From Clostridia bacterium (GTDB taxonomy: Bacteria; Bacillota; Clostridia; Christensenellales; CAG-1252): DNA of 32,266 bases. Of the stretch, positions 73 to 20,706 are shown in pieces; position 1 is the stretch's first letter; each line of letters opens with the position of its first letter. Made by a program: the position numbers and the translations under genes. The stretch covers positions 1-32,266 of the forward strand of contig JAGCXI010000044.1 of assembly GCA_017961365.1 (NCBI GenBank). Direction: 5' to 3'. Below the pieces are notes generated by a model. That model had not been told where the DNA came from. It was given only the letters and a program-made list of their open reading frames with translations, and did no database searches.

Positions 73-1203
73 ATGGCTGTTACTCTCAATGAAACGATCG
101 AAAAAGGGAAGTTCCTGATGATCTCTTATCGGAGCATCGACAGCCATATCGTTTTGGAAGACATTCGTCGGATGCAGGCGCTCGGTCTGCGTCTTTGGTA
201 CGACGCGGCGATGGAGCTCGGCGATAATTGGAAGCACGTGGCGGAAAAGGTCATCAAGCATCCGAATTGCGCCGGCGTCATTTTTTATAACAGCGAGAAT
301 TCTTTTGTGAGCAAGCCTTGTTTCTTGGAGCGCGGCTGGGCGAGAGAGCAGGCGGCGGTGATGAAGGAGAAAGGCGAGCCTTATATTTGTTTCTCCGTGA
401 ATATCGGCGGCAGATCCACAAACGAGATCATTCGTGACACCTATGCGCTCGCGGGCGAAGGAAATGTCGAAGCTTTCTTCCCCTTCGAATATTTGCGAGA
501 CGTCGTGGATATGTTCAATGAGGACGTGATCTGCGTGCGTCGCACGGGCACGGCGCAAGAGACGGCGGAGGCGATCTTGAATAAAACGCGCTCGCTCGGC
601 GTCGTGGATGATGAAGAAGTCATGCTGGAAGATCTCGAGCAGAAAGGGATCATCGTCACGGAAGAGAATAATAAGGTGCTTTACGCCGGCTTGTATCCCC
701 GTGAGATCGCGGACGTGGACGTCTCCCATAAAAATCTCGGTAAGGAATGGTTCACGGAGCGCGGCGAGCATTATTGCTATCTCGGCGGCGTTTATTATCA
801 TTGCGACCCCATTCGCTTCGTTTATCTCGAAAAGACGGATGATGGGCTTCGCTTTATGGCGGATCGCGTGCTTTTCTCCTCCACGGGCGAGGCGCTTCCT
901 TCCGCTTTGGCGCTTTTCACGAAAGAGGCGTTTCGCTCGGCGAAAAAGGCTTTCCCCGTCAAGACGGCGGAGCTTCCCTCCGAGCGCGTTTTTTCGGAGA
1001 ACAAAGGCAAGTTCGACGCCTTTTGCAAGACTTCGGATTTCGCGGAGAAGCAGACGCGTTTTTGGCTGTCCGACAGAGGAAAGGGCGGCAGAGCCTTGCA
1101 GATGAACGTCAATGAGAGCATGAACGTGAATGAAAGAGGCTTCAATCAGAAATTCAAATTGGGCGTAAGACCCATAGTAACATTCGATTTCAATAAAAAA
1201 TAA
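73..1203 (+). CDS. TIR-domain protein with C-terminal DUF6273-like domain
   Basis: The 376-residue protein has two parts. Residues 13-150 look like a TIR fold: a first strand FLMISYRSID, a BB-loop-like stretch LWYDAAMELGDNW (41-53), and SKPCFLE (80-86). The latter matches the S-x-x-C-x-x-E pattern that carries the catalytic glutamate of NAD-cleaving TIR domains, making E86 the candidate. Residues about 220-376 resemble DUF6273: aromatic-rich strands, FWLSDRG, and a GVRPIVTFDF ending typical of that family. Known bacterial TIR domains often hydrolyse NAD or make signalling nucleotides. A toxic or signalling effector role is inferred. A purine-rich site (AAAAGGACGAAAG) precedes the ATG. The next gene starts 12 bases downstream, so this is the first gene of an operon. 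TIR assignment is fairly secure; the DUF6273 call is from motif memory. Confidence 0.82.
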   Translation: MAVTLNETIEKGKFLMISYRSIDSHIVLEDIRRMQALGLRLWYDAAMELGDNWKHVAEKVIKHPNCAGVIFYNSENSFVSKPCFLERGWAREQAAVMKEKGEPYICFSVNIGGRSTNEIIRDTYALAGEGNVEAFFPFEYLRDVVDMFNEDVICVRRTGTAQETAEAILNKTRSLGVVDDEEVMLEDLEQKGIIVTEENNKVLYAGLYPREIADVDVSHKNLGKEWFTERGEHYCYLGGVYYHCDPIRFVYLEKTDDGLRFMADRVLFSSTGEALPSALALFTKEAFRSAKKAFPVKTAELPSERVFSENKGKFDAFCKTSDFAEKQTRFWLSDRGKGGRALQMNVNESMNVNERGFNQKFKLGVRPIVTFDFNKK

Positions 1204-1215
1204 AGGAGAAAGGAA

Positions 1216-3312
1216 ATGGCTGGGATCAAAACGGACGTCAGAGCGATGAATGCTCTGAGCAAGGCAATGAAGGATATCGTCGTCGACAAGAAAGAGGACA
1301 GTATCTTCTATGAATATGAGGACAAAGGTGTCATCGGCAAGAAGATACTCGAGGCTCTCCTTGCGAAAAGGAAGACTTCGGAGAACGGAAATTCCTTCGA
1401 CTTCAGCGACTCGATCAAGCAGTCGGGTCTTCTTTCCGTCACGCAGGTCTTGCAGACCGTGCTGATCTTGATCAATGATTATAAGATCGAATGCACGGAG
1501 GAAGTCTTGTCGCTTTGCGACGATCTCGTGAAAGAGCTCTTCGCGCACGTGGAGAACCCGAAAGGAAATTACAGCCTCTTTTATGACGAGGGGATCCCCG
1601 CGAAGGATATCCCGGAAGGAAATTTCCTTTTGGACGCCACGCCTTACGACGTGACTTTCCCCGCTTGTTTCTCTTATATCGATTCCATCACCTGGACGCT
1701 TCCCGTCGCGCTCGACCTTCTTCGCACGAATCTCACGGCGGGGGTGGAGTTCTTTGACAAAGCGACGGAGAAGAAGCTCATCGCGCTTTCGAAATTCTGC
1801 GTCAAGTATCTGAATCTTGCCTTTGTCGCCACGCCGCAGAGCAGCAAGATGTCTTGCGGATGGAATTTCACTTGGAAGTGCGTGAACCCCTCGCTTTATT
1901 ATACGTACGCCGTGGGCGAATGCTTCCAAAGCGTCAAAGCGAATTACGAGGAGTACGTGGACGCCAAGACGGGCGCGCCCCTTTCGGAGACCGAGAGCGG
2001 AAAGCGTTTCGCCGCCATCCTCGTCGAGATCAATGACGATCTGCCGTACGGCGATCCGACCTCTCCCGTCGGCAGGCTCAGAAACGATCTTTTGAAGGCG
2101 GCGGAAGGCGTATGGGAGGTGACGCAAGACCGCATCGACGATCGCTTCTTTAATTACGACCTCTCCGTTGTGGATGACGAGACCGTGCGCCACAGCCAGT
2201 CCAGCGACGTTCTCTTTAATATGGTCTTCATCGTGAATATCGTGATCTCCAGCGGCTTGAACGAAGTCTTGAAGGAGAAAGTCCAGAAAGCCGTGGGCGC
2301 CGATCGCGAAAAGTATCAGAAAGAATATGACGATATGTTCGAGCTGCTCCAGCTCGCCATCCAGCGCACGTCGCGTTTCTATAACGACTTAAAGGCGGTG
2401 GGAAGAGACTATATCGTGGATCAATATTACGCCGTCTTTAACGAGGATTACGTCTATCACAAAGTCCTCGCGAAAGAGCTCCGCAAGAGAAGGATCCGCA
2501 TGATGAGCCTTCTTCCCGTCATCATTTCCACCTTCACGCTCCTCGGCGAGTACATGGTGAAATATCCGCAGATCGATATGATTAAGTATCTCGACAGCAT
2601 GATGAGCGATCGTATCCTCGATGAGAATGGGCAGTACACTTGGCTCTGGGAGAAGGACTGCTATTATGCGACTTCCACTTACTATTACGTCTCTTCGCTC
2701 GCGGGCTTCTATCGTTACTATGAGACCTATGAGTCTCGTTTCTCCAAGATCGACACGGAGAATAACGCTTATAAGGCGCGCATCCAAGAGGCGCAATACA
2801 CCGCGTTGACCGCGGAGGGCGGCGAGATCGAGAAGCTCAAGAAAGAGATCGCGCGCTTGCAGGCGGAGAATGCGGAGCAGGCGGCGAAGATCGCGGCGGG
2901 CTCTCCCGTCGAGAACGCCATTGCGGATCTTTGCAAGAATTCCATTCGGGAAAACTTGCTTCCCGCTTTCAATGATCTTCTCTCCGGCATCCTGACTTCG
3001 ATGGATCCCGCGGAAGGGAAGCGTCTCTCGAAAGAAGAGAAGGCGTTCTCCGAGAATATGAAGCTCTTGCTCGTGCGCTCCCTCTTCGGCGCGGAGACGT
3101 ATGAGACGGCGGGCGACTGCAAAGAGGATCTCGACGGCAAGAATCAAAAAGACGCTTATAACAAACTCGTCAATTATCTCAGAAAAGATATCCGCACTAT
3201 CCTTGCGCTCTATGTCGGACAGGTCACCAAGTCCGTCACGCATGCGAGCGACTTTGTCGTGACGCAGGGCTATGACGGCATCCGCTCGGCGCTTTCCCGC
3301 AAGAAAGATTGA
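1216..3312 (+). CDS. Unknown 698-residue protein with coiled coil (TIR operon)
   Basis: I do not recognise a family. The protein is soluble-looking, with no signal peptide or clear membrane helix. Most of it reads as alpha-helical. A strong coiled coil runs about residues 515-565, with heptads around IEKLKKEIARLQAENAEQAA. A Cys/Trp/Tyr-rich patch near 212-235 includes MSCGWNFTWKC. The start follows a good site (AAAGGAGAAAGGAA) 12 bases after the TIR gene, so the two are co-transcribed. The gene ends 26 bases before the KGGAGR ATPase. Length, helical character and position suggest a scaffold or sensor partner of that ATPase, which is inference only. Codon use matches the neighbouring core genes. 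Confidence 0.85.
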   Translation: MAGIKTDVRAMNALSKAMKDIVVDKKEDSIFYEYEDKGVIGKKILEALLAKRKTSENGNSFDFSDSIKQSGLLSVTQVLQTVLILINDYKIECTEEVLSLCDDLVKELFAHVENPKGNYSLFYDEGIPAKDIPEGNFLLDATPYDVTFPACFSYIDSITWTLPVALDLLRTNLTAGVEFFDKATEKKLIALSKFCVKYLNLAFVATPQSSKMSCGWNFTWKCVNPSLYYTYAVGECFQSVKANYEEYVDAKTGAPLSETESGKRFAAILVEINDDLPYGDPTSPVGRLRNDLLKAAEGVWEVTQDRIDDRFFNYDLSVVDDETVRHSQSSDVLFNMVFIVNIVISSGLNEVLKEKVQKAVGADREKYQKEYDDMFELLQLAIQRTSRFYNDLKAVGRDYIVDQYYAVFNEDYVYHKVLAKELRKRRIRMMSLLPVIISTFTLLGEYMVKYPQIDMIKYLDSMMSDRILDENGQYTWLWEKDCYYATSTYYYVSSLAGFYRYYETYESRFSKIDTENNAYKARIQEAQYTALTAEGGEIEKLKKEIARLQAENAEQAAKIAAGSPVENAIADLCKNSIRENLLPAFNDLLSGILTSMDPAEGKRLSKEEKAFSENMKLLLVRSLFGAETYETAGDCKEDLDGKNQKDAYNKLVNYLRKDIRTILALYVGQVTKSVTHASDFVVTQGYDGIRSALSRKKD

Positions 3313-3338: not shown

Positions 3339-4256
3339 ATGAAATCACTCACTTTTTTCAGCTATAAAGGCGGCGCGGGCAGGACGTCCGCTCTCGCGAA
3401 TCTCATCCCCATCCTCGGCGATGAGGACCATCTGAACGCCACGCCCGAGACCCCGATCGTCCTCGTGGATATGGACATCGACTCCGCAGGTCTGACCTAT
3501 CTTCTCGATAAGGCGGATGAGGCGTATCGTTCGAATTGTTACGTTCAGTACTGCCTCGGACAGGGCATCCCCGGGCATACGAATACGAGCGCGCCCATCG
3601 ATAAACATCCTTTCTTCTCGCAGCTTTGCAAAGTGGGCGCTTTTTTCGGCTTGGAAGAGGATGCCGTGCTTTTCCTTCCCGCGAAAGACGGCGGAATGAT
3701 CGAGGATTCCAATAGCTCGAATTACGACGCGAAGACCTCGCCGCATCTCACGACCCTTCTTCAGCTTTGTGAGGATTATGACTGCGCCGCGGTGGTTTTC
3801 GACTCGGCGGCAGGCGATCAAATGACGGCGAAATGGAGCACGAACAGCACGCAGATCATGGTCTGTTGCATGCGCCCCACCAAGCAATTCCGCGAAGGAA
3901 CGATCCGTTATCTCAAAAGATTCGAGCAAGAGAATAATATGAAGGACATCATCATCGTCCCCAATGTCGTGCCCCCGATGCGGATGAATATCGACGGTGA
4001 TTCTTATCCCATCACCGCGAAGTTGAATCTGAAGAACGCCATCAAGATGAATCTCGACGAGGACAAGAACACTCTCCATCTCGAGATGCTTACGGGCGAC
4101 GAATTCGGCATCCCGATGGTGCCGCGCTTTATGTGGCTCGAAGGCGTGCTTGCGAATATCGATTCGCGGAATGAAGACGAAGAAGCCGCTTATAATAAGT
4201 ACGTCCTCCTTGCGGACATCATCAGGGACAATACGGACGACTCTTTTAATGCGTAA
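3339..4256 (+). CDS. ParA/MinD-like ATPase with variant KGGAGR P-loop
   Basis: The 305-residue protein starts MKSLTFFSYKGGAGRTSALAN. This is a deviant Walker A motif (residues 10-17) in which the signature Lys10 is kept but the usual P-loop Lys is Arg15. IVLVDMDIDSAG (about 38-50) matches the conserved Asp strand after Walker A in SIMIBI ATPases, and CAAVVFDSAAGD fits Walker B. The Arg replacement defines a known variant group usually called KGGVGR ATPases, which recur in predicted nucleotide-dependent conflict systems; this one has Ala for Val. An upstream ATG-like start at 3309 overlaps the previous gene, but the ATG at 3339 has a textbook AGAAAGGAGG site and begins at the expected first strand, so I chose it. 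The role as switch or sensor ATPase in the operon is inferred. Confidence 0.88.
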   Translation: MKSLTFFSYKGGAGRTSALANLIPILGDEDHLNATPETPIVLVDMDIDSAGLTYLLDKADEAYRSNCYVQYCLGQGIPGHTNTSAPIDKHPFFSQLCKVGAFFGLEEDAVLFLPAKDGGMIEDSNSSNYDAKTSPHLTTLLQLCEDYDCAAVVFDSAAGDQMTAKWSTNSTQIMVCCMRPTKQFREGTIRYLKRFEQENNMKDIIIVPNVVPPMRMNIDGDSYPITAKLNLKNAIKMNLDEDKNTLHLEMLTGDEFGIPMVPRFMWLEGVLANIDSRNEDEEAAYNKYVLLADIIRDNTDDSFNA

Positions 4257-4268
4257 ATAGGAGTGCTT

Positions 4269-6458
4269 ATGGAGAAGAATGATTCCAAAATCAAAAATGC
4301 GGAGCTCATGAACGAATTGAGACGGCTCATTCCCGATGAGAATCTCCGTCTTTATATCTTCGGTGAGAATGACGAAGACGTCCTTGCCAAGAAGAGCTTG
4401 TGGAAAGGGGTCAATTATTATAAATACATCAATAACGCCCTGAACCTCAGCTTTATGTATATCTACGCCTGTTATCGCCGCATGATCGATAATATCGCGG
4501 AGATCGATCTTTCCTCTTTTTCTTCCAATGCGAAGCGGGTCTATGACATCCTCAGCAAGCTTTATATCGGGCGCGCGGTGAATACCGAGCTCATCCAGTT
4601 CGTCTTGATGGATCTTTATATCGACCTTACGGGTGAGAATTCCCTCGGCGAATATATTCCCGATTTTATGCAGACGAGTCGGCGCATCGATTTCCACAGC
4701 TATTTCCGCAAGATCATGGAATGGCAGAAGACCTCCCGTCTGGAGAATTCCTTGGAAGAGATGCAGGGGATGTTCATGAAGCTCCTCCCGAGCCTCACTT
4801 TCCTCCGCAACGTCTCGCTCGAAGGGGAGAACGATGATTTCGTCTTCCACGTGCATAGCTGGACGGACGACAGCAAATTTTATTGCAATCGCACCATCAT
4901 CAAAGTAAATATGGGCAGACGCCAGCGCTTCTATTTCTTGGAGAGCCTGACGGTGACGAATTCCAAGCTGATGCTCTCTTATAATACGGTGGACGGCAGC
5001 GGCTGTATCAATTATTATATCGCCGAGGATGAGCCCGAGACCCTTGAGCTCGGAGAGGATAATTCCATCTCCATCAATCGAAACTGCGGCGACGTCTTCT
5101 GCGAGATCACGGGACAACGCCTCGAGGGCGAGGAGACGCAGGAGCAGAAGGGCTTCATCGAGGATATCCACACCATCAATTATCGTTATATCAAGAATCT
5201 TGCTCTCTCCATCTCGGATTCGATGACGGATGACGACAAGAGGAATCTTTATAACCGCTTTTATTCTGCCTATCCCGGGTCCTTCGCTTCCAATGATCCG
5301 ATGGCGACGGAATTCTCCGCAGAACATTATAATTGGGATAACGTGAGCATCATCTTGCTCATCGAGGCGAGCCCGACGAAAGTGCTTTACGAGCTCCTTT
5401 ATTATAATCCGCATATCATGCATCCGCTCTTAAAAGAGCTGGGGATCCGCTTCCATCAGAGTCTCCCGATCTGTCGCTTGTCGCAGAAGGAGCTCGACGA
5501 GAAGATCAAGGAGTCCTATGTCGGAAATAAGCTCACGGGCTTTATTCGTCAGGAAGAGCAGAATACGGGCGCATTTTCCGAGAAAAGAAACGCCGAGATC
5601 AAGGCGCGCCTCATCGTGGACAGCCTGAATGCCTGCTCCGCGCCGGAGAAGACGCGGCACGGCGTGAGCCTTTGGAGCATCGACGAGGTGATCCTCTCCA
5701 TCGAGAAATTGAAATACAATCGGGATCGGGAAGTTCGGTTCAAGATGCTTTCCGAGATCATGGGCGGCGTCTTCCGTCGTTTGATCTGTTTCTATCGCGG
5801 CATCTTCGCATATGCCGCCGTGATGGATAATTTCGACGTAACCGCTTTTTCCCGCGCGATGAACGAAGAGGAGATCAAGGAATATCAAAAGCAGGCGATC
5901 GACGCCTTCCACCGCGAGGCGAAGGCTTGGGCGGATCGCTTGAAAGAGATCCCCGTTCCCTCCGACGCTTTCAAACAGCTCTGCGAGGATTGCGCCTTTA
6001 ATTCGGGTAGCGTGCGCGACGAGACCAAGTATATGCGCAGCGTGATCGGGAAGTCCGAGATCATCATCGGCGTGGATCTCAAAAAGCTCTTGGACGTCGG
6101 CTTCGATTGGACGGAGAAGAGCAATCAGAATATCGATAAACTCATTGCAAATTCGATGCGCTTCCTGCAATACATCAAGAACGGCGGCTTTAAGACGCAT
6201 AACGTCGTGGAGGCAGTATATCCCGCCTGCGCCATTTATATCAGTAATTTCAGCAATCGCGACGGCTATAAGACCATGACCTTCCTCCTTACGGGAGAAG
6301 AAGGACAGGAGGATAAAGAGATCAAGATCCTGACGGACTTCGAGTATCGCATGGGCGAGGCGTATTACTGCTTGCCTAACGTGGCGCGCTCGAATAAGAA
6401 TTGGTGGATCGAGCCCTTTATCGTGAATTGCAGAGATTTCGACGCGCTTTTCGATTGA
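4269..6458 (+). CDS. Unknown 729-residue protein (TIR operon)
   Basis: No family is recognised. The protein begins MEKNDSKIKNAELMNELRRL and is rich in Tyr, Asn, Glu and Ile. Helical N-terminal and C-terminal thirds flank a region around residues 190-280 that looks beta-rich (FVFHVHSWTDDSKFYCNR and RQRFYFLESLTVTNSK). The C-terminus is aromatic (NWWIEPFIVNCRDFDALFD). There is no signal peptide or obvious membrane span. The ATG at 4269 has TAGGAG five bases upstream. A GTG at 4263 in frame is possible but would use the ribosome site as coding sequence. The gene starts 12 bases after the KGGAGR ATPase and ends 30 bases before the SpeD-like gene, so it probably works with both. Target recognition or ATPase regulation is a guess from size and position. 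Confidence 0.85.
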   Translation: MEKNDSKIKNAELMNELRRLIPDENLRLYIFGENDEDVLAKKSLWKGVNYYKYINNALNLSFMYIYACYRRMIDNIAEIDLSSFSSNAKRVYDILSKLYIGRAVNTELIQFVLMDLYIDLTGENSLGEYIPDFMQTSRRIDFHSYFRKIMEWQKTSRLENSLEEMQGMFMKLLPSLTFLRNVSLEGENDDFVFHVHSWTDDSKFYCNRTIIKVNMGRRQRFYFLESLTVTNSKLMLSYNTVDGSGCINYYIAEDEPETLELGEDNSISINRNCGDVFCEITGQRLEGEETQEQKGFIEDIHTINYRYIKNLALSISDSMTDDDKRNLYNRFYSAYPGSFASNDPMATEFSAEHYNWDNVSIILLIEASPTKVLYELLYYNPHIMHPLLKELGIRFHQSLPICRLSQKELDEKIKESYVGNKLTGFIRQEEQNTGAFSEKRNAEIKARLIVDSLNACSAPEKTRHGVSLWSIDEVILSIEKLKYNRDREVRFKMLSEIMGGVFRRLICFYRGIFAYAAVMDNFDVTAFSRAMNEEEIKEYQKQAIDAFHREAKAWADRLKEIPVPSDAFKQLCEDCAFNSGSVRDETKYMRSVIGKSEIIIGVDLKKLLDVGFDWTEKSNQNIDKLIANSMRFLQYIKNGGFKTHNVVEAVYPACAIYISNFSNRDGYKTMTFLLTGEEGQEDKEIKILTDFEYRMGEAYYCLPNVARSNKNWWIEPFIVNCRDFDALFD

Positions 6459-6488
6459 TATGCCCGAAGACGGGGCGAAGGAGAGATT

Positions 6489-7283
6489 ATGTTACATTAT
6501 ATGTTGGACGCATATGGGACGGACGAGGAAAACGCCAATAATCTGATGTGTGTGAATGAGCTCTTCATCAAGGTGATGCAGGACTTGTCCCTTTCTCCCG
6601 TGATGCCCCCGTTCCTTTTGCCGTATTATTATTGCGAGGACGCTTATGACGGCGGGATCTCGGCTTTTTGCTTTTGCAAAGGCGGGCACGTGACCATTCA
6701 TACTTTTCCGTATAAAGGCTGTTATTTCGCGGACGTTTTCTGCGATGAATTCTTTACGTCGCAGGAGGCGGAGAAGGCCTTTACCAATCGTTTGTACGCG
6801 CGAAAAGTCCAGTCCGAGCTCGTGGACAGACGTTTTTCGGATTCTTTCCCCGAAAGGAGTGACGCGGACTCGGCGGATTTCGGGCCGCATTATCTCATCA
6901 ACGTCAGCGACGTGGATATGACGATGGAGAAGATCAATCTCCTTTTGGATTCCATTCCGGAGAAGATCGATATGCTCCCCATTTCGCGCCCTTACGTCAT
7001 CTTCGACACGAATAAAGATCCCCGCTACATCTCCGGCATCGTGCTCGTGGCGCAGTCGCATATCTCCATTCATTACGAGATCAAGGCGAGAAGGCTTTAT
7101 ATGGACATCTTCTCTTGTAAGTTTCTCGACGATAAGAAGATACGCGCGCTCATCGAGAGTCTGTACGGGGATAAAGCGGAGTACCATCTCGTGATCCGCG
7201 GCGCGAAATACGCTTGGAATTCCAAGACGTCGCGCGAGCAATACGCCCGCAGCTCGGCGTGGAGGAATAACAGCATCAAATAA
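6489..7283 (+). CDS. Tandem SpeD-like (AdoMet decarboxylase-like) protein
   Basis: The 264 residues contain two successive copies of the bacterial S-adenosylmethionine decarboxylase (SpeD) core. In copy 1 (about 1-115), GGISAFCFCKGGHVTIHTFP plus YFADVFCDEF aligns with the SpeD pattern G-V-S-G, E-S-H-x-x-I-H-T-W-P and D-x-F-x-C, but the pyruvoyl-forming Ser is Gly66. In copy 2 (about 135-235), YISGIVLVAQSHISIHYEI plus LYMDIFSCKF keeps Ser190, His195 and Cys210, which correspond to the SpeD cleavage serine and the catalytic His and Cys. The usual Glu before the Ser is Gln189, and the W-P-E segment is lost. Known SpeD proteins are about 120-140 residues, so this is a duplication-fusion with one degenerate site. 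Neighbours are conflict-type genes, not spermidine genes, so a role in sensing or altering AdoMet is more likely than polyamine synthesis. A purine-rich GAAGGAGAGA precedes the ATG. Confidence 0.78.
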   Translation: MLHYMLDAYGTDEENANNLMCVNELFIKVMQDLSLSPVMPPFLLPYYYCEDAYDGGISAFCFCKGGHVTIHTFPYKGCYFADVFCDEFFTSQEAEKAFTNRLYARKVQSELVDRRFSDSFPERSDADSADFGPHYLINVSDVDMTMEKINLLLDSIPEKIDMLPISRPYVIFDTNKDPRYISGIVLVAQSHISIHYEIKARRLYMDIFSCKFLDDKKIRALIESLYGDKAEYHLVIRGAKYAWNSKTSREQYARSSAWRNNSIK

Positions 7284-7294
7284 TCGAGGCAAAT

Positions 7295-8623
7295 ATGCAG
7301 GTCTTTTCTATCTTATTACCTTTGGCGATGATCTTCGTCCTATCCGGAATTCTTTGCGGAGCTTGCAAGAAGCTGCACATTCCTTTCGTCGTGGGCGAGC
7401 TGCTCGCCGGCATTTTGCTTGGGCTGGTGCGGCTGATCCCGGGGCAGACGATCATCACGAGCTTCACGGAAGGCGGGCTCGCTTTCTTCGCAAAGATCGG
7501 CGTGATCCTCATCATGTTCTCCGCGGGGCTCGGCACGGACATAAAGATGGTGAAACAGACGGGGAAAGCCGCCGTCATCGTGACTCTTCTCGGCGTCGCG
7601 GTGCCTATCATTTTCGGCTTCCTTGTGGCGTGCCTTTTCCTGAATCACGGCTTTGCGGGGCTCACTGCCTCGAAGGCGGTGAGTTATTTCTTTTACGGCG
7701 TTATTTTGACGGCGACGTCGGTCAGCGTGACCGTCGCCACCTTGAAAGAAATGGGCAAGCTGAATGGAAAAGTGGGGACGACCATCGTCACCGCTGCCAT
7801 TTTGGATGATATCATCGGCGTCATTCTTCTGAGTTTCGCCGCAGGGCTCGGCGGCGAAGGCGGGAATGTCGGCATTGTCATTTTGAAGACGGTGATCTTC
7901 TTCGCCGTGGCGATCCCGCTCGGATTCTTGCTGAGATGGCTTTTCAAGAAGCTCTCTGCGATGGGGGTTCCGAAAAATTTCCTGAAAATATTCGGCGTGG
8001 CGCTCGCTTTCGTATACGCCTATGCAGCGGAGGAATTCTGCGGCGTGGCGGACATCACGGGGGCATTCTTTATCGGGCTTATGCTTTCGGGGACGGAAGA
8101 AGCGAAGGAGATGGATGCTTTCACGGGCACGCTTTGCTTATTCTTCTTGCCTGTCTTTTTTGCAAATATCGGGATCACGACGCAGTTCTCCGCCATTGAT
8201 ACGGGGATATTGGTCTTCGGCATCTGTTACGTCGCCGCGGGGCTGCTCAGCAAGGTCATCGGATGCGGTTCGGGCGCTTTGCTCTGTCACTTCGATCTTA
8301 AAGAGTCTACGGCGGTGGGCGTCGGCATGATGGTGCGCGCCGAAGTCCTTTTGATTTGCGCGGAGAAGGGGATACAGTCCGGGATGGTGGACGCGAATAT
8401 TATGCCCTTTATCCTCGCCATCATATTGATCTCGTCGCTTATCACCCCCGTCATTTTGAAAGTGATGGTGGGACGACGCTCCGCGCCCGACCTCCCGCTT
8501 GCGGGGGAGAGCCTTTCGGGAGAAAACGCCCCGACGGAAATCCCTGCGGCGGAGCTTACTACCGAGCCGCTCGCGGAAGACTGTCTTGAAGAGGGCGGTT
8601 CCGAAAATAAGGCGGAGGAATGA
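7295..8623 (+). CDS. Cation/proton antiporter, CPA2 (KefB-like) type
   Basis: The 442-residue membrane protein has about 12 hydrophobic segments from residue 2 to 390. Its sequence fits the Na+/H+ exchanger family, including the helix MIFVLSGILCGACKKLHIPF, VVGELLAGILLG, AAILDDIIGVILL with paired acidic residues, and a broken GTDIKM/FSAGL region. It should exchange protons for K+ or Na+ across the cytoplasmic membrane. It lacks the C-terminal RCK/TrkA-N regulatory domain of classical KefB/KefC; instead an acidic, probably disordered tail follows residue 400. The start lies 11 bases after the SpeD-like gene with only a weak GAGG site, so it is probably the last gene of the same transcript. A strong terminator follows. 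Whether it belongs to the conflict system or is simply read through is open. Confidence 0.85.
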   Translation: MQVFSILLPLAMIFVLSGILCGACKKLHIPFVVGELLAGILLGLVRLIPGQTIITSFTEGGLAFFAKIGVILIMFSAGLGTDIKMVKQTGKAAVIVTLLGVAVPIIFGFLVACLFLNHGFAGLTASKAVSYFFYGVILTATSVSVTVATLKEMGKLNGKVGTTIVTAAILDDIIGVILLSFAAGLGGEGGNVGIVILKTVIFFAVAIPLGFLLRWLFKKLSAMGVPKNFLKIFGVALAFVYAYAAEEFCGVADITGAFFIGLMLSGTEEAKEMDAFTGTLCLFFLPVFFANIGITTQFSAIDTGILVFGICYVAAGLLSKVIGCGSGALLCHFDLKESTAVGVGMMVRAEVLLICAEKGIQSGMVDANIMPFILAIILISSLITPVILKVMVGRRSAPDLPLAGESLSGENAPTEIPAAELTTEPLAEDCLEEGGSENKAEE

Positions 8624-10201: not shown

Positions 10202-11371
10202 ATGATAGGTGATTTTATGTATGGAACCCCGACGACGCTGCTCTTCGGGAAAGGGGTCATCAAGCACCTTCCCGAGGTCATGGCGAAATACGGAAAGAAC
10301 GTCCTTTTGACCTATGGAGGCGGCTCCGTCAAGAAACTGGGGATTTATGACGAAGTGTATAAACTGCTGAAAGATTTCCATATCGTGGAACTTTCCGGCA
10401 TCGAGCCGAATCCCAAATACGATCCCTCCGTCATCACGGGGGCAAAGCTCTGCAAAGAGAATGCGATCGACGTCATCCTCTCCGTGGGCGGAGGCTCCGT
10501 TTTGGACTGTTCGAAAGCCATCGCCGCTTGCGCGAAATATCATGGCGAGGGCTGGGATCTCATCTCGGGGAAAGTGAAGGCGAAAGCCGCGCTTCCCATC
10601 GTGGATATCATCACGCTTGCCGCCACGGGGAGCGAATATGACTGCGGATGCGTCATCTCCAATACGGCGATCAATGATAAGCGCGGATATCAGGACGAGC
10701 TCTTATTCCCCGCCTTCTCCTTTATGGATCCCGAGTACACTTTCAGCGTCTCTCCTTGGCATACGGCTTGCGGCACGGCGGACGCCATCAATCACGTTTT
10801 GGAACAATTCTTCTCCGCGCCAAGCTCTCTTTTTAATGACGGGATCATGATCTCCGCGATCCGCTCTTTGATGACGAATGTCAAGATCGCGCTTGCGGAG
10901 CCCACGAACTACGCGGCAAGGAGCGAATTGATGTATGTCTGCAGCTGGGGCTGTAACGGCATATTGTCAAACGGCGCGGGATATTCCGGCTGGCCGATGC
11001 ATTCCATCGAGCATGCCCTCAGCGCTTATTTCGACATCACCCACGGGGCAGGGCTCGCCATCATTACGCCGCGCTGGATGGAAGAGATCTTGTCCGAGAA
11101 GACGCTGGAACGTTTCGTTACGCTCGGGAAAGGACTTTTCGGCTTCGAGGCGGCGTCGGAGGAGGCGATGGCGCGTAAGGTCATCCGAGCCTTCTATGAG
11201 TTTTTTGAAGAGATCGGCATCCCGATGCATCTCGGGACGCTCGGCGTAAAGGCGGAGAAGATCGAAGAGATGGCGGATCACATTCTCGCAAATGACGACA
11301 CGTCGCAAGATTGGGCTTACGTCCCGCTCGATAAAGCGGCGCTTATCCGCATTCTGGAAAAAAGTATGTGA
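10202..11371 (+). CDS. Iron-containing alcohol dehydrogenase (butanol dehydrogenase-like)
   Basis: The 389-residue protein begins MIGDFMYGTPTTLLFGKGVI, typical of NAD(P)-dependent butanol/aldehyde-reducing group III alcohol dehydrogenases. VLLTYGGGSVKK and LSVGGGSVLDCSKAIA bind the nicotinamide cofactor. The metal ligands are expected in the helix with HSIEHALSAYFDITHGAGLA, which carries the usual two or three His residues. It would reduce aldehydes to alcohols during fermentation. An in-frame upstream extension to 10103 is open but has no family similarity and includes the dispersed repeat. The ATG at 10202 has AAAAAGGAGAAAA directly upstream, so I chose it. A bidirectional terminator follows, facing the convergent TM2-like gene. 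Confidence 0.92.
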   Translation: MIGDFMYGTPTTLLFGKGVIKHLPEVMAKYGKNVLLTYGGGSVKKLGIYDEVYKLLKDFHIVELSGIEPNPKYDPSVITGAKLCKENAIDVILSVGGGSVLDCSKAIAACAKYHGEGWDLISGKVKAKAALPIVDIITLAATGSEYDCGCVISNTAINDKRGYQDELLFPAFSFMDPEYTFSVSPWHTACGTADAINHVLEQFFSAPSSLFNDGIMISAIRSLMTNVKIALAEPTNYAARSELMYVCSWGCNGILSNGAGYSGWPMHSIEHALSAYFDITHGAGLAIITPRWMEEILSEKTLERFVTLGKGLFGFEAASEEAMARKVIRAFYEFFEEIGIPMHLGTLGVKAEKIEEMADHILANDDTSQDWAYVPLDKAALIRILEKSM

Positions 11372-11451
11372 TCTCCCTTGCTTGTCCCTTGGAAAGGCTC
11401 TTTCGAAGGAGCGCGGCGAGAGAGGAAATCTCCCCGAAAAGGGGAAAGAAA

Positions 11452-11485
11452 AAAGATGGCGGGAGCATTCTCCTGCCATCTTTTT
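11452..11485. terminator. Bidirectional terminator
   Basis: A 14-bp stem (11452-11465 with 11470-11483, one G-U) has the loop CATT. It has T-rich sequence on the right and A-rich sequence on the left. It serves the plus-strand dehydrogenase gene and the convergent minus-strand TM2-like gene. Confidence 0.8.
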
Positions 11486-11526
11486 GATCTTATGAGGAAG
11501 GCGTTATCGCCGCCTCAAATTTTCGC

Positions 11527-11772
11527 TCAGCCTTGCACGGCGGGCTCGTCTTTGATATAGCCGATGTTCTTCTCTTTCGCAGGATCGAAAGTAAGGTTGC
11601 AGATGGAAGCCACGAGGTCATAGATCCCGAAAGTCACGATCCCGAGGAAGAGATAAGCCGCCGTTCTCGACGTGTACCCTTCGGGTTTCAGGTCGGTGTG
11701 ATTGATGATAATGCTACCGATCCAACCGAGGAAGAAAGTGAGCAAAAAGCGAACAAGATTTTTATTTTCCAT
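11527..11772 (-). CDS. Small TM2-like membrane protein
   Basis: The 81-residue protein has an N-terminal hydrophobic hairpin (LVRFLLTFFLGWIGSIIINH, about residues 6-25) and a second membrane span near 38-57 (AAYLFLGIVTFGIYDLVASI). It resembles TM2-domain proteins: FLGWIG...H in the first span, and LGIVTFGIYDLV in place of the usual LGxxGIWWLID in the second. It would sit in the cytoplasmic membrane with a short charged tail. Function is unknown. The start is supported by AAAGGAGA eight bases upstream, and a good promoter lies at 11808-11837. The overlapping open frame on the other strand lacks a ribosome site and looks like a shadow. Confidence 0.8.
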   Translation of the reverse strand: MENKNLVRFLLTFFLGWIGSIIINHTDLKPEGYTSRTAAYLFLGIVTFGIYDLVASICNLTFDPAKEKNIGYIKDEPAVQG

Positions 11773-11807
11773 AAGTAAGTCTCCTTTGTGAGAAATTTTG
11801 ATGACTT

Positions 11808-11837
11808 ATTTTATCACTTCGCGCGCATTTTAGTCAA
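11808..11837 (-). promoter_or_regulatory. Promoter of the TM2-like gene
   Basis: On the minus strand, TTGACT (11837-11832) and TAAAAT (11813-11808) are 18 bases apart, with TGA giving an extended -10. It is divergent from the promoter at 11863-11891. Confidence 0.7.
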
Positions 11838-11862
11838 GTCACATTTTACACCGAATTCGATA

Positions 11863-11891
11863 TTGTCTTTTCGCAAAGAATATGTTATGAT
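11863..11891 (+). promoter_or_regulatory. Promoter of the membrane Nudix-like gene
   Basis: TTGTCT at 11863 and TATGAT at 11886 are 17 bases apart with an extended TGT before the -10. The start codon is only 28 bases downstream. Confidence 0.7.
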
Positions 11892-11918
11892 ATTTTTAAC
11901 AAAAGAGGAGAGTTTGTT

Positions 11919-13433
11919 ATGAGTTTTTTCTGCGTAAGCGCCTCATTTTCCGAAGTTTTGGGCAATGTGCAAAAGGTTTTTGCGATTTTCGGTTTTATTT
12001 CTGTTTTTATCGCACTTATTCGCTATTTGAATGATAAAAAGAGAGATAACTTCGTAGGCTTGAAAGCGAAAATCGAAGTAGCCCGTAGCAATTCGACAAG
12101 GGCGTGTTTTGAAGCCTATAAAAGAAACGACGATAAAGAAAAAGATGATAAAAAAGCGAACGCAACAAAGAAAGCTATGAGAGCAGAAGGCGATAAAAGC
12201 CTCTTGGCAGATTCCACAGCTTTGATCATAGATAAGGATTGGGAATATTGGGGGGATGCGAAAAGAGAATGGATATCTCTCGATGATGTCCAAGTCACGG
12301 TCGCGGGTGAGAAGCCCGAAAGCGTCGAAAAGATAATAAAACATCCTCCCTATCCGCAAAAGTTCAAGCCGTTTTCTATCAGAAAATCATATGTGAAAGA
12401 GATGTTGAGATACGGCTGTACGCCGACGATCTTCTTCAACGGAGAGATCTATTGCGCCGCTTCACTTTCTAAAAATAAAAATTTACCTTCTTTAACGGTC
12501 TATGAGAGCGGGTATTTCGATTTTTTCAATACCTGCAAAGTCCAAGAATTCAGATATGAAGCGGGTAAAAAAAGAGATTTTAAAATACGGAAAAAGGGGG
12601 AGAAAAAGACCGGTATCCTTGATCTCGAAAATCGTGCTTGCAGCATAGGCGTCGTCACGCTCACCGTGATTCGTCTTGAAGACGCAAAGAAAAATGAAGA
12701 CGGAAAGATCGATGAGAAGAATAACGGACTTTATTTCCTGATGCATAAAAGAGGAGGCAATGTGGCGGAAGGCCCCGGCACCGTGCATGTCGTCCCCGCG
12801 GGCTCTTTCCAGCCCTTCGTCGGCTTTGAAAAGGATTCGAAGCCTATGCTTTCCTCGACGGTTTATCGCGAGTTCTGCGAAGAAGTCTTGTCCACGACGG
12901 ATATGAGAGAACTTTCCAGCGCGTCATTCTTGGGGGAGAATGATGCGTATAAATTTATAGCAAATAAAGAAACGGTTAGCGGAGATAATAATCCTTCGGA
13001 TAAGTCGGATCATAATCCTCCTGCTAAGCCGATCGAGATCTCAAGGCTTTATTATCTCGGCGCAGGCTTGGATCCTTATAATACCAAGATGGAGATCATG
13101 TCGCTCTTGTTCATCGACTTGCGCGAGGAAAAAAGTTTTAATAAATTCATCAAATATGCGACGGCGAATGCGAAAAACAGTGATATTCCGGAAGGCGAGG
13201 TAAAGGAAAAAGCGTTCGCTTCTAAAGAAAATCGTTTGCGGGAAGCGCTCAAAAAAGCCTCCGACACCGAAGGCTCGATCGTGCTTGAAAGGTTTAATAC
13301 AGCCACGCTTGAAGAGTATTTCGGAAATATAAATATCGTCCCCGCCGCGAAAGAACTGATGTATATCGCGTATAAGCGATTTGACGAAATAGAAGGTTTC
13401 GCAGTCGAGCAAGCGTCCGAGGCCGCTCAATAA
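11919..13433 (+). CDS. Membrane-anchored protein with Nudix-like domain
   Basis: The 504-residue protein has one N-terminal membrane span (about residues 20-37, VFAIFGFISVFIALIRYL). A Lys/Asp-rich linker (65-90) and a long cytoplasmic region follow. VVPAGSF (292-297) and YREFCEEVLS (316-325) resemble the start and end of a Nudix box. The spacing between the Gly and REFCEE is longer than in the canonical G-x5-E-x7-REUxEE box, so the box is interrupted and the call is tentative. Nudix domains hydrolyse or bind nucleoside diphosphate derivatives. The first third is AT-rich and Lys-rich compared with neighbouring genes, suggesting acquisition. The gene is alone, with its own promoter and a terminator directly after it. 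GAGGAGAG precedes the ATG. The product may be a membrane-linked nucleotide sensor or effector, but this is unproven. Confidence 0.72.
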   Translation: MSFFCVSASFSEVLGNVQKVFAIFGFISVFIALIRYLNDKKRDNFVGLKAKIEVARSNSTRACFEAYKRNDDKEKDDKKANATKKAMRAEGDKSLLADSTALIIDKDWEYWGDAKREWISLDDVQVTVAGEKPESVEKIIKHPPYPQKFKPFSIRKSYVKEMLRYGCTPTIFFNGEIYCAASLSKNKNLPSLTVYESGYFDFFNTCKVQEFRYEAGKKRDFKIRKKGEKKTGILDLENRACSIGVVTLTVIRLEDAKKNEDGKIDEKNNGLYFLMHKRGGNVAEGPGTVHVVPAGSFQPFVGFEKDSKPMLSSTVYREFCEEVLSTTDMRELSSASFLGENDAYKFIANKETVSGDNNPSDKSDHNPPAKPIEISRLYYLGAGLDPYNTKMEIMSLLFIDLREEKSFNKFIKYATANAKNSDIPEGEVKEKAFASKENRLREALKKASDTEGSIVLERFNTATLEEYFGNINIVPAAKELMYIAYKRFDEIEGFAVEQASEAAQ

Positions 13434-13438
13434 AAGCA

Positions 13439-13466
13439 AAGCCCCGCCTATGCAGACGGGCTTTTT
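13439..13466. terminator. Terminator after the Nudix-like gene
   Basis: AAGCCCCG pairs with CGGGCTT around a TATGCA-containing loop, with one bulged C, followed by TTTTT. It lies directly after the stop codon and may also stop the converging minus-strand gene. Confidence 0.65.
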
Positions 13467-13522
13467 CCTCTCTTCTTCGGTTTGCGAAAAGCGCGCCTTT
13501 TCCGCCGCCTTCGCAAACCTTT

Positions 13523-14443
13523 TTATTTCTTCGCTTTTCGGATCTCGGCGATCTTGAGCGCGGCTTCTTTGTCGATGACTGCGATGCCGTTCTTTTCGGC
13601 GATCTCCACGATCTGCATCAGCGCCGCTTTCATGAAAGGACGCGGTATTTTTACGTACATTTCGCAGGCTTCCTTGGTGAATTTCACCGTTGTATCCAGC
13701 CTTTCCGCGCAATACATCACGCTTTCCACCGCTCCCGCGTTGCTCGCGGCGATGACGTCCGAGGTGGGCAGGATCCCCTTGAATTTTTTGTACCAGAAAT
13801 TTTTGCTGTCGTGATAGCCGTAATCCACCGGCACGGGCGGGAAGGAGCTCTTTTTTAGCCCGTTTTTGAGATGATCGGCGTATTTTTCTTCCATAAGGAT
13901 GTCGTCGATCGTGAGGATGAAATGACAGCCGAATTTGGAGGTAATGCCGTTGAAATCATTGTAAGGCGGCTCCACGCCCTCCAGCTCGCCGATATGTGCC
14001 TTGGATTTATAGCCGTCCTCCAGCGCCTCGTTCCAGGTGCATTCGATGACTTGATAGGCGTCTTTCAGGATGAGCGGTCTCGCGCCTTCCGCTTGTCCTT
14101 TGATGAGCGCGAAATTGCAGTCTTTCATCTTTTCTTCGGGGGTCTTCCCGGGGAATCCGAGGCGGACGGCTTCTTTGAAATATTTCCGATCGTCTTTGAT
14201 GAAGTTCAGCGCGCATTTCCCGTTTTTCAGGATGTTTTGCGCGGTATTGGAAGAATTTCGACATTCGAGCAGCATCGCGTAGCGCTCCTTGCCCGCGATG
14301 TAATAGGGGAATACCAAGGAATAGCTCCCCAATGTGGTCATTCCGTCGTCGCATAACGTGGAGATGATGACCGTCGGCATCGGATAAAAAAGATTGTTTT
14401 GATAAAAGTTGTCCACGATTTTCAATTGTCTGAAATCACCCAT
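13523..14443 (-). CDS. Flavin reductase-like protein with PCP_red-like C-terminal domain
   Basis: The 306-residue protein starts MGDFRQLKIVDNFYQNNLFY. Residues about 10-200 match the flavin-reductase (FMN-binding split barrel) pattern: PMPTVIISTLCDDGMTTLGSYSLVFPY, followed by the NTAQNILKNGKCALNF segment. The last 50 residues (KIPRPFMKAALMQIVEIAEKNGIAVIDKEAALKIAEIRKA) resemble the small helical PCP_red domain also found on other redox proteins. It probably binds FMN and reduces an unknown partner. The frame stays open upstream to 14554, but the ATG at 14443 has GGAGAACAAG just before it and begins at the family's usual start. The gene is monocistronic and convergent with the Nudix-like gene. 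Confidence 0.8.
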   Translation of the reverse strand: MGDFRQLKIVDNFYQNNLFYPMPTVIISTLCDDGMTTLGSYSLVFPYYIAGKERYAMLLECRNSSNTAQNILKNGKCALNFIKDDRKYFKEAVRLGFPGKTPEEKMKDCNFALIKGQAEGARPLILKDAYQVIECTWNEALEDGYKSKAHIGELEGVEPPYNDFNGITSKFGCHFILTIDDILMEEKYADHLKNGLKKSSFPPVPVDYGYHDSKNFWYKKFKGILPTSDVIAASNAGAVESVMYCAERLDTTVKFTKEACEMYVKIPRPFMKAALMQIVEIAEKNGIAVIDKEAALKIAEIRKAKK

Positions 14444-14480
14444 CTTGTTCTCCTTCGACGTTCGTCGGCTCCAAGCGTCC

Positions 14481-14508
14481 GAAATATCCGTCTTTTTTCT
14501 TCTGTCAA
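14481..14508 (-). promoter_or_regulatory. Possible promoter of the flavin reductase-like gene
   Basis: On the minus strand a perfect TTGACA (14508-14503) is followed 16 bases later by TATTTC (14486-14481). The -10 is weak, so confidence is modest. Confidence 0.4.
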
Positions 14509-14653
14509 TATAGTAACATTTTGTCGCGGCTGAATCAAGACCCGATCTTCGCAAAATCCGAATATGCCTGCGAAAAGACGCTCACGCCCTCTGCCTGCGG
14601 CGCAAAAGGCATTTTTTTCGGGGTTCCCGCGCGCAAGGAATCCGAGAAACGTA

Positions 14654-14683
14654 TTGCAAATCTTCCGCGCGAGGCGTTAAAAT
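14654..14683 (+). promoter_or_regulatory. Promoter of the MBL hydrolase gene
   Basis: TTGCAA at 14654 and TAAAAT at 14678 are 18 bases apart, 24 bases before the start codon. Confidence 0.55.
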
Positions 14684-14707
14684 GGAAAGAGAAAAGAGAG
14701 GTGACAT

Positions 14708-15409
14708 ATGAAAACCGTTTTGAATTTGGGGACTTTTTATATGAACGCCTATTTGATATCCCTCAAGGACGGTTGGCTCCTTCTTGACACGGGATATCCT
14801 TTTGATTATAAGCATTTTCTGAGGAAGGCGAGGCGAATGAAGATAGACCTCTCCTCCATTCGTTATGTCGTCTTGTCGCACGTCCATGCCGATCACGCGG
14901 GGTTTCTGAAAAAGATCCTTGCGGATACGGGCGCAAAGCTCATCTGCCTGCCCGCCGAAAAAGAGCGCCTCGCCTCGGGCGCGAACGTGAAAGACGTCTA
15001 TATCTCACGTAAAGTGCTGCTCCCGCTGAATAAGCTGTCTGCGGCGCTTCCCGCTTTCCAAACCTTCGAGCCCTTGGATGTCAGCGGCTGCATCGACCCC
15101 GAAACCCAGCCTTTGGCGGAGGAGGGGATCACCTTTTTCGTGCTCCACGGACATACGGACAATGACCTCTGTCTCCGCTTTGAGGATAAGATCTTCGTCG
15201 GCGACGTCTGCATGAACGGCGCGGGGGCGGCGGGATATTCTCCGCTTTGGATCGAGGATAACGCCGCGCTCACGGAAAGCTGGCGGACGCTTCTGCAAAC
15301 GGAGGGAGACTGCCTTTATCCGGGGCACGGAAAGCCTTTTCCGAAAAGCGCCCTTGCAAAATTTATCGATAAACAGGCGCGGAGAAAGCTTTGTAAACTT
15401 TTCAAATAA
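14708..15409 (+). CDS. MBL-fold metallo-hydrolase
   Basis: The 233-residue protein carries the metallo-beta-lactamase-fold metal motif SHVHADH (His58, His60, Asp62, His63). Further ligands are likely in LHGHTDNDLC (about 148-157), the Asp of GDVC, and YPGHGKPF near residue 208. It starts with the usual first strands (YMNAYLISLKDGWLLLDTGY). Family members hydrolyse thioesters, lactones, phosphodiesters or similar substrates with two metal ions; the substrate here cannot be told. The start has GAGAGGTGAC six bases upstream. The gene has its own promoter. A second promoter near its 3' end probably drives the next gene. Confidence 0.88.
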   Translation: MKTVLNLGTFYMNAYLISLKDGWLLLDTGYPFDYKHFLRKARRMKIDLSSIRYVVLSHVHADHAGFLKKILADTGAKLICLPAEKERLASGANVKDVYISRKVLLPLNKLSAALPAFQTFEPLDVSGCIDPETQPLAEEGITFFVLHGHTDNDLCLRFEDKIFVGDVCMNGAGAAGYSPLWIEDNAALTESWRTLLQTEGDCLYPGHGKPFPKSALAKFIDKQARRKLCKLFK

Positions 15410-16885: not shown

Positions 16886-18055
16886 ATGGCAGATAATACA
16901 AACCTTGGCGCTGCGAAAGCAGGCAAGAAAGATGAATTCTATACGCAATACAGCGATATAGAAGCGGAAATGAATGCCTATGTGGAATACAATCCCGACG
17001 TATTTCGCAATAAGACGATCTTGCTTCCGTGCGATGATCCCGAATGGTCGAATTTTACCAAGTATTTTGCATCCAATTTTGAGCGCTTCGGATTAAAGAA
17101 ATTGATTTCCACTTCCTATGAGAAAGGTGCGGGAAATAAGCAACTGACGATTTTCGAAATGCTTTCGCCCCTTTATAATGAAGAACTACACGAAACGAGA
17201 GGGAAACTCTTTACTTTGACCCGCGACAAGGACGGTTCGGGGAATATCGATACGGACGATATCGAGTTTTCGGGATATTTGAAAGGTGACGGCGATTTCC
17301 GCTCTAAAGAAGTATGTAAACTGCGCGACGAAGCTGATATTATTATAACGAATCCTCCCTTCTCTCAATTTAGAGAGTTTTTGGCTTGGATTACGAATGC
17401 TAACAAAAAATTTGCAATTATAGGGAATGTCAATGCAATTACGTACAAGGAAGTATTTCCTCTTTTGAAGGATAATTTGATGTGGTTGGGTGATTCTATT
17501 CATTCAGGAGACAGAAAGTTTAATGTGCCTGATGATTATCCGCTTGAAGCGGCGGGTTGTGGAGTCGATCCCGATGGACGCAAATTCATTCGAGTTAAGG
17601 GTGTTCGGTGGTTTACAAATATTGATCATGGCGGGCGTCATGAACCGCTACAACTTGACACTATGGCTCATAATTTGAAATACAATAAAAGCCTGAAAAA
17701 GAAATTTGAAACAGAATATGGAATTAGCGTCTATCCGCACTACGACAATTACGATGCAATAGAAGTTCCGTTTACCGAGTGCATTCCGTCGGATTACGAT
17801 GGTGTAATGGGTGTTCCAATTACATTTATGGACAAGTATAACCCAGATCAGTTTGAAATACTTGGAATGTGTGAGAATGAGGATTTATATGGGATGAAAA
17901 CCCGTCGTTACACTTCCCAAGAATGTAAAGATCGTTACTATGAAATATTTGGAAAACAAGGGACGTATGATTTGAACGCTTCGGGTGTGGTTCAAGGAAA
18001 AAAGGTATATCAACGAATTCTTATTCGTGCCAAGGAGGGAGGAAATACACAATGA
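16886..18055 (+). CDS. EcoRI-type adenine-specific DNA methyltransferase
   Basis: The 389-residue protein fits the EcoRI methylase family. Its N-terminal GKKDEFYTQYSDIEAEM, ILLPCDDPEWSNFTKYF (45-61) and DIIITNPPFSQF (151-162) are characteristic. NPPF (156-159) is the catalytic motif of N6-adenine methylases. It would transfer the methyl group of AdoMet to adenine in a specific DNA site. The ATG has AGGAG seven bases upstream. The 3' end overlaps the next gene by four bases (ATGA), so the methylase and the DUF262-HNH protein are translationally coupled. The gene becomes AT-richer than the core genes from about its middle on. The target sequence cannot be predicted. Confidence 0.9.
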   Translation: MADNTNLGAAKAGKKDEFYTQYSDIEAEMNAYVEYNPDVFRNKTILLPCDDPEWSNFTKYFASNFERFGLKKLISTSYEKGAGNKQLTIFEMLSPLYNEELHETRGKLFTLTRDKDGSGNIDTDDIEFSGYLKGDGDFRSKEVCKLRDEADIIITNPPFSQFREFLAWITNANKKFAIIGNVNAITYKEVFPLLKDNLMWLGDSIHSGDRKFNVPDDYPLEAAGCGVDPDGRKFIRVKGVRWFTNIDHGGRHEPLQLDTMAHNLKYNKSLKKKFETEYGISVYPHYDNYDAIEVPFTECIPSDYDGVMGVPITFMDKYNPDQFEILGMCENEDLYGMKTRRYTSQECKDRYYEIFGKQGTYDLNASGVVQGKKVYQRILIRAKEGGNTQ

Positions 18056-19218: not shown

Positions 19219-19233
19219 GGAAAGGATGCATTT

Positions 19234-20028
19234 ATGGAAATAAAAGGAACAAAAGATAGCCATATTCAAATACCCAAATCGCTGTTAAAGCCTTTTTCTA
19301 CGCCTGTATCTATCGTGAATTCCTTAGGGTTTAAAGAAACGCCTGATATGGTTTTCAAAATGGATATGGAAGGGACTATTTCACAAGAAAGCATTAAAGA
19401 GGCAAACACGGAATATGGCTACTATGATGATTTTATTGAAACTTCACTTTTAAAATCCATAGAAGACGCATTCGGCGATTTTAAAGCTAATCTTTTGAAG
19501 TCAGTAAAAGCGAACGTGCTTCCTGTTTTTTCGCCAAGTGACATCGTCATAGTGCAAAAATTTTGTTCTCTTTGTATAATCCGCTCACAGAGCGTTGTGA
19601 ACGATATTAAGAAAAAATCTGTTTTTATGGATTTTTTAGCGGATGCTCCGCAAAATGTAGTTGTCTATCAATATTTTAAAGATCAAACACTTGTAGACGA
19701 ATATATTTTCGGTGATAATATTAGCTACGTTAAAAATGAAACTGAGCTCAATTATATTTTGCCTCAATTTTATGCGATAGGAATGGAGCAAAAAGACCAT
19801 ACCGTTGACTATTTTATCCCTATTAGTCCCAAGGTTTTGGTTAGATTGACTTCTGCTAAAACGATCATCGGAAATCAATTGATTGTGGGGAGAATGCGAG
19901 AATCGGATGTTGATAATCTAAATAAATTTGCGATTAAACAAGAATTCTTAAATAATCATAGGGCTGTCTACGCAAAAGAAAAAGAAGATTTGGAGCGATA
20001 TGTCCATTTTATAAAATCTTTGTCTTGA
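19234..20028 (+). CDS. DUF4238-like protein
   Basis: The 264-residue protein has the order of features seen in DUF4238 proteins: an N-terminal HIQIPKSLLKPFS, then YGYYDDFIETSLLKSIEDAFGD, a helical middle (FCSLCIIRSQSVVNDI), and FIPISPKVLVRLT near the C-terminus. The function of that family is not established. The ATG has GAGGAAAGG upstream, 15 bases after the HNH gene, so it is in the same operon. The sequence is AT-rich. The next gene starts 11 bases downstream. The family call is from motif resemblance only. Confidence 0.65.
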   Translation: MEIKGTKDSHIQIPKSLLKPFSTPVSIVNSLGFKETPDMVFKMDMEGTISQESIKEANTEYGYYDDFIETSLLKSIEDAFGDFKANLLKSVKANVLPVFSPSDIVIVQKFCSLCIIRSQSVVNDIKKKSVFMDFLADAPQNVVVYQYFKDQTLVDEYIFGDNISYVKNETELNYILPQFYAIGMEQKDHTVDYFIPISPKVLVRLTSAKTIIGNQLIVGRMRESDVDNLNKFAIKQEFLNNHRAVYAKEKEDLERYVHFIKSLS

Positions 20029-20039
20029 AGGTGATTTGT

Positions 20040-20699: not shown

Positions 20700-20706
20700 T
20701 CGTTTT

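Follow-up and report, generated by a model that had tools for sequence, protein, structure and literature searches.

In a gut Clostridia bacterium, two decarboxylase folds of the SpeD type are fused within a single enzyme, here called SpeDD, of which the first is dead and the second apparently live. The gene lies in the window, by which we mean the whole stretch of 32,266 nucleotides that was analysed, and it closes an operon that also encodes a TIR-domain protein and an ATPase (Table 1). The explanation that we prefer, and hold with moderate confidence, is that SpeDD is a one-site pyruvoyl decarboxylase, built as a single-chain pseudo-dimer of SpeD, which likely converts arginine to agmatine and serves as a swappable module of the TIR/ATPase operon.

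Table 1. Features of the SpeDD operon in the window.
Feature	Position	Strand	Description and basis
TIR-domain protein	73..1203	+	376 aa; TIR-type Glu present; PF13676 at 2.8e-5, just below cut-off
Conserved operon protein	1216..3312	+	698 aa; mostly helical (predicted); no named family; synteny
MinD/ParA-like ATPase	3339..4256	+	deviant P-loop SYKGGAGRT, KGGVGR type; NF047398 at 3e-14, alignment
Conserved operon protein	4263..6458	+	731 aa; no named family; L133 counterpart fused to TIR
SpeDD	6489..7283	+	264 aa; predicted pyruvoyl-dependent amino-acid decarboxylase; PF02675 twice, AF2 model, VIA-align
SpeDD N-terminal half	6489..6863	+	residues ~1-125; dead: Gly66 (pyruvoyl Ser), Asp86 (Cys); Ser58 and His71 kept
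SpeDD C-terminal half	6864..7280	+	residues ~126-264; predicted live, Ser190/His195/Cys210; without W-P-E
Ser190 codon	7056..7058	+	predicted self-cleavage/pyruvoyl residue, break expected between Gln189 and Ser190; sequence, alignment

The initial annotation had described this reading frame as two fused SpeD copies with one intact and one dead catalytic site, and the domain searches bear this out. The Pfam family AdoMet_dc matches the protein twice (3.1e-21, 76.1 bits across the two stretches), and the halves scored separately reach 45.9 and 34.1 bits, both above the cut-off of 25. The gene starts with ATG and has a GGAGAG ribosome-binding-like site. An assembly or frame artefact was ruled out, because independent assemblies contain this open fusion as well. 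Ser190, His195 and Cys210 of the C-terminal copy are correctly placed in that annotation and have the spacing of SpeD: the catalytic residues of the T. maritima enzyme are S63, H68 and C83 (PMC10407285), and 20 residues separate Ser190 from Cys210, the same as S63 from C83. Gly66 in the N-terminal copy was likewise located correctly, and the case for a dead site is extended by the loss of the Cys as well, which is Asp86. The W-P-E segment is indeed lost from the second copy, which reads H-Y-E-I-K at the position of H-T-W-P-E in SpeD.

When 297 genomes from the order were searched, the fusion was recovered in 12, and profile searches added two copies in the class and nine in the phylum. Residue conservation was scored on 24 SpeDD homologues from Bacillota (an earlier alignment held 13). 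Ser190, on whose conservation the initial annotation had made its reading depend, is invariant in all 24, as are Ser182, His195 and Cys210. The invariant residues of the N-terminal half are Ser58, Gly65, His67, Thr69, His71, Thr72 and Phe73. At position 66, 23 of the 24 homologues have Gly, the exception (L024) having Ser beside a one-residue insertion, and at position 86 none has Cys. Comparison of the window's copy with an 86%-identical copy (L021) gave a dN/dS of about 0.03 for the N-terminal half and about 0.15 for the C-terminal half; between these two sequences purifying selection is stronger on the N-terminal half. Since its dN/dS is about 0.03, the dead half is constrained and presumably functional.

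Both halves are predicted to adopt the SpeD-like b-a-b-b-b-b-a-b topology, as the initial annotation had expected, in an AF2 model of moderate quality built from five input sequences (pLDDT 71.7, pTM 0.73). The best VIA-align match to this model is full-length human AdoMet decarboxylase (AdoMetDC; 1jl0, Z 14.3, 202 residues, rmsd 3.3), which supports the parallel drawn earlier with the eukaryotic enzymes; superposition on a bacterial SpeD, that of T. maritima, comes next (Z 13.2), followed by T. brucei AdoMetDC (5tvf, Z 11.3). Foldseek matches to the RnlA toxin were discarded as meaningless (rmsd 16-17), and a search of PDB sequences with the SpeDD profile returned no class 2 AdoMetDC chain among its matches.

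The strong constraint on the dead half may be understood by analogy with the eukaryotic enzymes. In human AdoMetDC the pyruvoyl group is formed at Ser68, Ser229 and His243 take part in activation, and the equivalent of Ser229 in T. maritima is Ser55 (PMC3975893). Judged by numbering, Ser229 and His243 fall in the half of the chain opposite Ser68. T. maritima Ser55 and His68 align to Ser58 and His71 of the dead half of SpeDD, both of which are among the invariant residues. From this we infer a single active site to which both halves contribute, as in the eukaryotic enzymes but with the roles exchanged. Ser190 would cleave itself from Gln189 and yield the pyruvoyl group, and Cys210 would act as a catalytic residue; the N-terminal half, having lost its own Ser and Cys, would supply Ser58 and His71 to the C-terminal site across the pseudo-dimer interface, much as Ser229 and His243 are supplied by the silent half of the human enzyme. 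Class 2 AdoMetDCs (human, potato, T. brucei) are likewise tandem SpeD folds with one dead half, and in both families the dead half appears to retain counterparts of the Ser and the His on which the live half draws. They differ in that the live site is in the N-terminal half of the class 2 enzymes but in the C-terminal half of SpeDD, and in that the substrate is AdoMet for the former and probably another compound for the latter.

Bacterial SpeD fusions with one degraded half have been described, and in those it is the C-terminal half that is dead (PMC10407285). The SpeD-SpeDC fusions of Omnitrophota, Desulfotignum and Lentisphaerota (PMC10407285) resemble SpeDD in having two class-1b-type SpeD domains per chain, one of which may be degraded, and in length (271-318 aa, against 264 aa). 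In those fusions a true AdoMetDC forms the N-terminal half, the C-terminal half is either an ornithine decarboxylase or inactive, and speE is found downstream of the gene. SpeDD instead has a dead N-terminal half and a live C-terminal half that does not carry the SpeDC signature, and within the window's order it belongs to a TIR/ATPase operon in genomes mostly without speE.

The origin of the fusion was examined in a tree of the SpeDD halves together with SpeD, the single-domain relative L104, and SpeDC sequences taken from L007 and from viral contigs. The N-terminal halves form one clade (support 100/99) and the C-terminal halves another (96/88), a pattern consistent with one fusion event. 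The C-terminal half is sister to the SpeDC ornithine decarboxylases (96/82), and the N-terminal half groups with L104 and SpeD, but a topology that unites the halves in one clade is still compatible with the data (p-AU 0.14). Thus, of the duplication put forward in the initial annotation, the two SpeD domains stand, and self-duplication is one possible route to them, a fusion of two diverged paralogues being as likely. L104 itself (oriented positions 6474-6905, genome G694) has a live site and the SpeDD N-terminal signature MPP...PED.GIS; trees place it between SpeD and SpeDD, and it possibly represents the unfused ancestral type. Relatives of SpeDC-type ornithine decarboxylases are encoded by 24 viral contigs in IMG/VR (L134-L157). 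No SpeDD was found in IMG/VR or in plasmids, and three phage matches to the search resemble single or separate SpeD genes; a mobile or phage origin of SpeDD was set aside.

The operon, which the initial annotation did not point out, runs in the order TIR protein, 698-aa helical protein, KGGVGR ATPase, 731-aa protein and SpeDD, with gaps of 6-30 bases. Its synteny with SpeDD extends across the order, and most loci hold the full set; no TIR gene is seen near L028 or in L022, where the contig ends, and L026, L029 and L030 have a gene of 200-270 aa in place of the 731-aa gene. Orthologues of the TIR protein match Pfam at 1.9e-15 and 5.3e-12 (support is strongest in L025 and L005), and the TIR-type Glu is invariant across 15 TIRs. 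The AF2 model of the 698-aa protein is of low confidence (pLDDT 48). PADLOC gave only weak TIR matches in the operon (ThsB, SAVED_TIR) and called no system, and the large operon proteins had no match.

A CPA2 cation/proton antiporter gene (window positions 7295-8623) follows SpeDD after 11 bases. It probably lies outside the operon, because SpeDD has it as a neighbour in no copies but those of the same genus (L003/L020 and L021). In two other loci a radical SAM gene and a PEP-synthase-like gene trail SpeDD within 5 bases, as a tight series of a variant radical SAM protein and an ATP-grasp/PEP-utiliser pair (L025, positions 10862-14035; L027, 9512-12678). Elsewhere in the window, a restriction-type cluster (16886-22347) encodes an EcoRI-family adenine methylase, a type II REase-like protein of the GmrSD_N/HNH type and a T5orf172 protein, the last matching the PADLOC candidate PDC-S57 at 6.7e-95.

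Of the 297 genomes from the order, 18 matched the ATPase profile, and each of the 12 SpeDD genomes is among them (nominal hypergeometric p 2e-17, a value that ignores genome relatedness). Among 391 genomes drawn from the class, no KGGVGR ATPase was found beyond the window's own. The six ATPase operons without SpeDD (L128-L133) carry other enzymes. A GNAT occupies the place of SpeDD in L128-L130; in L131 and L132 a TIR gene is found there, and a PapB-like radical SAM/SPASM gene lies upstream of the 698-aa-type gene. In L133 (oriented positions 10617-14792), a TIR domain is fused to the 731-aa-type protein, and the SpeDD end of the operon holds a CxxCxxCC protein followed by a PLP-dependent Orn/Lys/Arg decarboxylase (PF01276). 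Immediately downstream of that locus, an overlapping open reading frame on the other strand resembles, by eye, the N-terminus of Cas9. The patchy distribution of the operon would suit an accessory system for conflict or signalling. Actinobacterial FxSxx-type peptide-processing systems (PMC7159879) also pair a TIR protein with a MinD/ParA-like ATPase, and some of the loci described here share with them a radical SAM/SPASM enzyme. The present operon differs from those systems in that SpeDD and two large proteins of no named family stand where no vWA/MoxR or AP-ATPase component was identified, and in that the NF047398 scores of its ATPase (53.8 and 52.0 bits) are below the cut-off of 90 by which FxSxx/KGGVGR systems are recognised.

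The family name and the Pfam AdoMet_dc match suggest that SpeDD still decarboxylates AdoMet and feeds spermidine or another aminopropyl product, which we consider very improbable. Spermidine synthase is absent from 11 of the 12 operon genomes, and none was found in the window's own genome (88% complete). The live half has lost the Pro of T-W-P-E, a residue found in every true AdoMetDC (PMC10407285), and the NCBIfam AdoMetDC equivalog TIGR03330 gives SpeDD 61.9 bits, below its cut-off of 75.65, even when both halves are counted. A second, ordinary SpeD match is present in all nine SpeDD genomes of one profile search, and L093 and L094 hold an E. coli-type SpeD in addition to SpeDD, which argues that another gene covers AdoMet decarboxylation. 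SpeDD is therefore probably not an AdoMetDC; a role in making spermidine was rejected, as both spermidine synthase and W-P-E are missing, and the same two observations favour the changed substrate that had been suggested from the loss of W-P-E.

In terms of substrate, L-arginine is favoured, and our best guess from sequence and gene context is a pyruvoyl arginine decarboxylase that would form agmatine, since the marks of AdoMetDC and SpeDC are absent, speE is rare, and agmatine-using genes are neighbours. Outside the order, SpeDD occurs in the clusters speD-speE-agmatinase-SpeDD (L093), speD-speE-SpeDD (L094) and SpeDD-speE-agmatinase (L100), in which the polyamine partners score above equivalog cut-offs; the gene sets of L093 and L100 indicate that the step missing is the source of agmatine. 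The other eight copies outside the order adjoin no recognised polyamine gene. An agmatine-deiminase gene, the sole PF04371 gene of each genome, is found in four TIR-type operons (L026, L028, L029 and L030; TIGR03380 at 2.1e-92, below cut-off), and an agmatine-using enzyme is absent from 8 of the 12 operons, the window's own among them. Genes of the agmatinase or agmatine-deiminase families are present in all 11 SpeDD genomes outside the order, SpeB and AguA also being frequent in control genomes. The SpeDA arginine decarboxylases (PMC10407285, PMC9992855) are like SpeDD in having lost the marker Pro and in having agmatinase or agmatine-deiminase neighbours; unlike SpeDD they are not such fusions, and for SpeDD the arginine activity is only predicted.

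The main counter-evidence to arginine is the kinship of the C-terminal half with SpeDC and the PF01276 PLP decarboxylase gene present in 23 of the 24 genomes tested, because of which another source of agmatine may exist; an argument from SpeDD as the sole arginine decarboxylase of its genome was dropped for this reason. Given the grouping of the C-terminal half with SpeDC, ornithine is a real alternative, though a rather unlikely one: SpeDD would be a SpeD-SpeDC fusion of the published type in which the SpeD half decayed instead of the SpeDC half. The domain order matches those fusions (PMC10407285), the C-terminal half and SpeDC both have His followed by an aromatic residue, no W-P-E and a D-I-F-S-C-K segment, and L094 adjoins speD-speE in a genome that has no agmatinase gene. 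Of the four residues diagnostic of SpeDC (Gln, Thr, Phe and Tyr; criteria from PMC10407285, positions taken from the SpeDC sequences used here), the C-terminal half nevertheless lacks three, namely Gln(-5), Thr(-1) and Phe(+6), and Tyr(+14) varies; the agmatinase or agmatine-deiminase neighbours point to agmatine, and the agmatinase-less genome G513 does carry an agmatine-deiminase-family gene. Less probable still is that SpeDD is a ligand sensor or scaffold of a TIR/ATPase complex and not an enzyme, despite the signalling-type setting of the operon, the apparently dead half and the strong constraint upon it. The sensor function raised in the initial annotation loses its support, as a sensor-only role, because the pyruvoyl Ser, His and Cys are invariant in all 24 homologues, and the sister operons without SpeDD carry enzymes (GNAT, radical SAM, PLP decarboxylase).

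In this order SpeDD has become an exchangeable enzyme module that closes the TIR operon, whose sporadic distribution resembles that of conflict systems; on the preferred reading, the amine produced, or the arginine consumed, would be part of the output of that system. We tentatively suggest, as a possibility that goes well beyond the enzyme itself, that the TIR protein and the KGGVGR ATPase belong to an immune or signalling system of Clostridia with an exchangeable module for amine chemistry, which would mostly be SpeDD making agmatine (in some cases with agmatine deiminase) and otherwise a PLP decarboxylase, GNAT or radical SAM enzyme; the amine could be an effector, or a co-substrate that TIR joins to ADP-ribose. 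A histidine-ADP-ribose product has reportedly been found for a Thoeris system and serves as the model for such joining.

In the open-access journal papers searched, neither the dead-N/live-C orientation, nor this operon, nor a decarboxylase tied to a TIR/ATPase system was found; the searches there combined AdoMetDC with TIR and anti-phage, agmatine deiminase with TIR, KGGVGR with TIR, and TIR with decarboxylase and polyamine. What appears to be new in SpeDD is thus the combination of a dead N-terminal and a live C-terminal half, and its swappable place in an uncharacterised TIR/ATPase operon. SpeDD would mirror eukaryotic AdoMetDC in a bacterium, the opposite half having died while it kept residues that should assist the live site, and it offers an independent test of how one-site pseudo-dimers evolve. 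That other enzymes acting on amines or peptides can take the place of SpeDD suggests that these operons share a common, testable logic.
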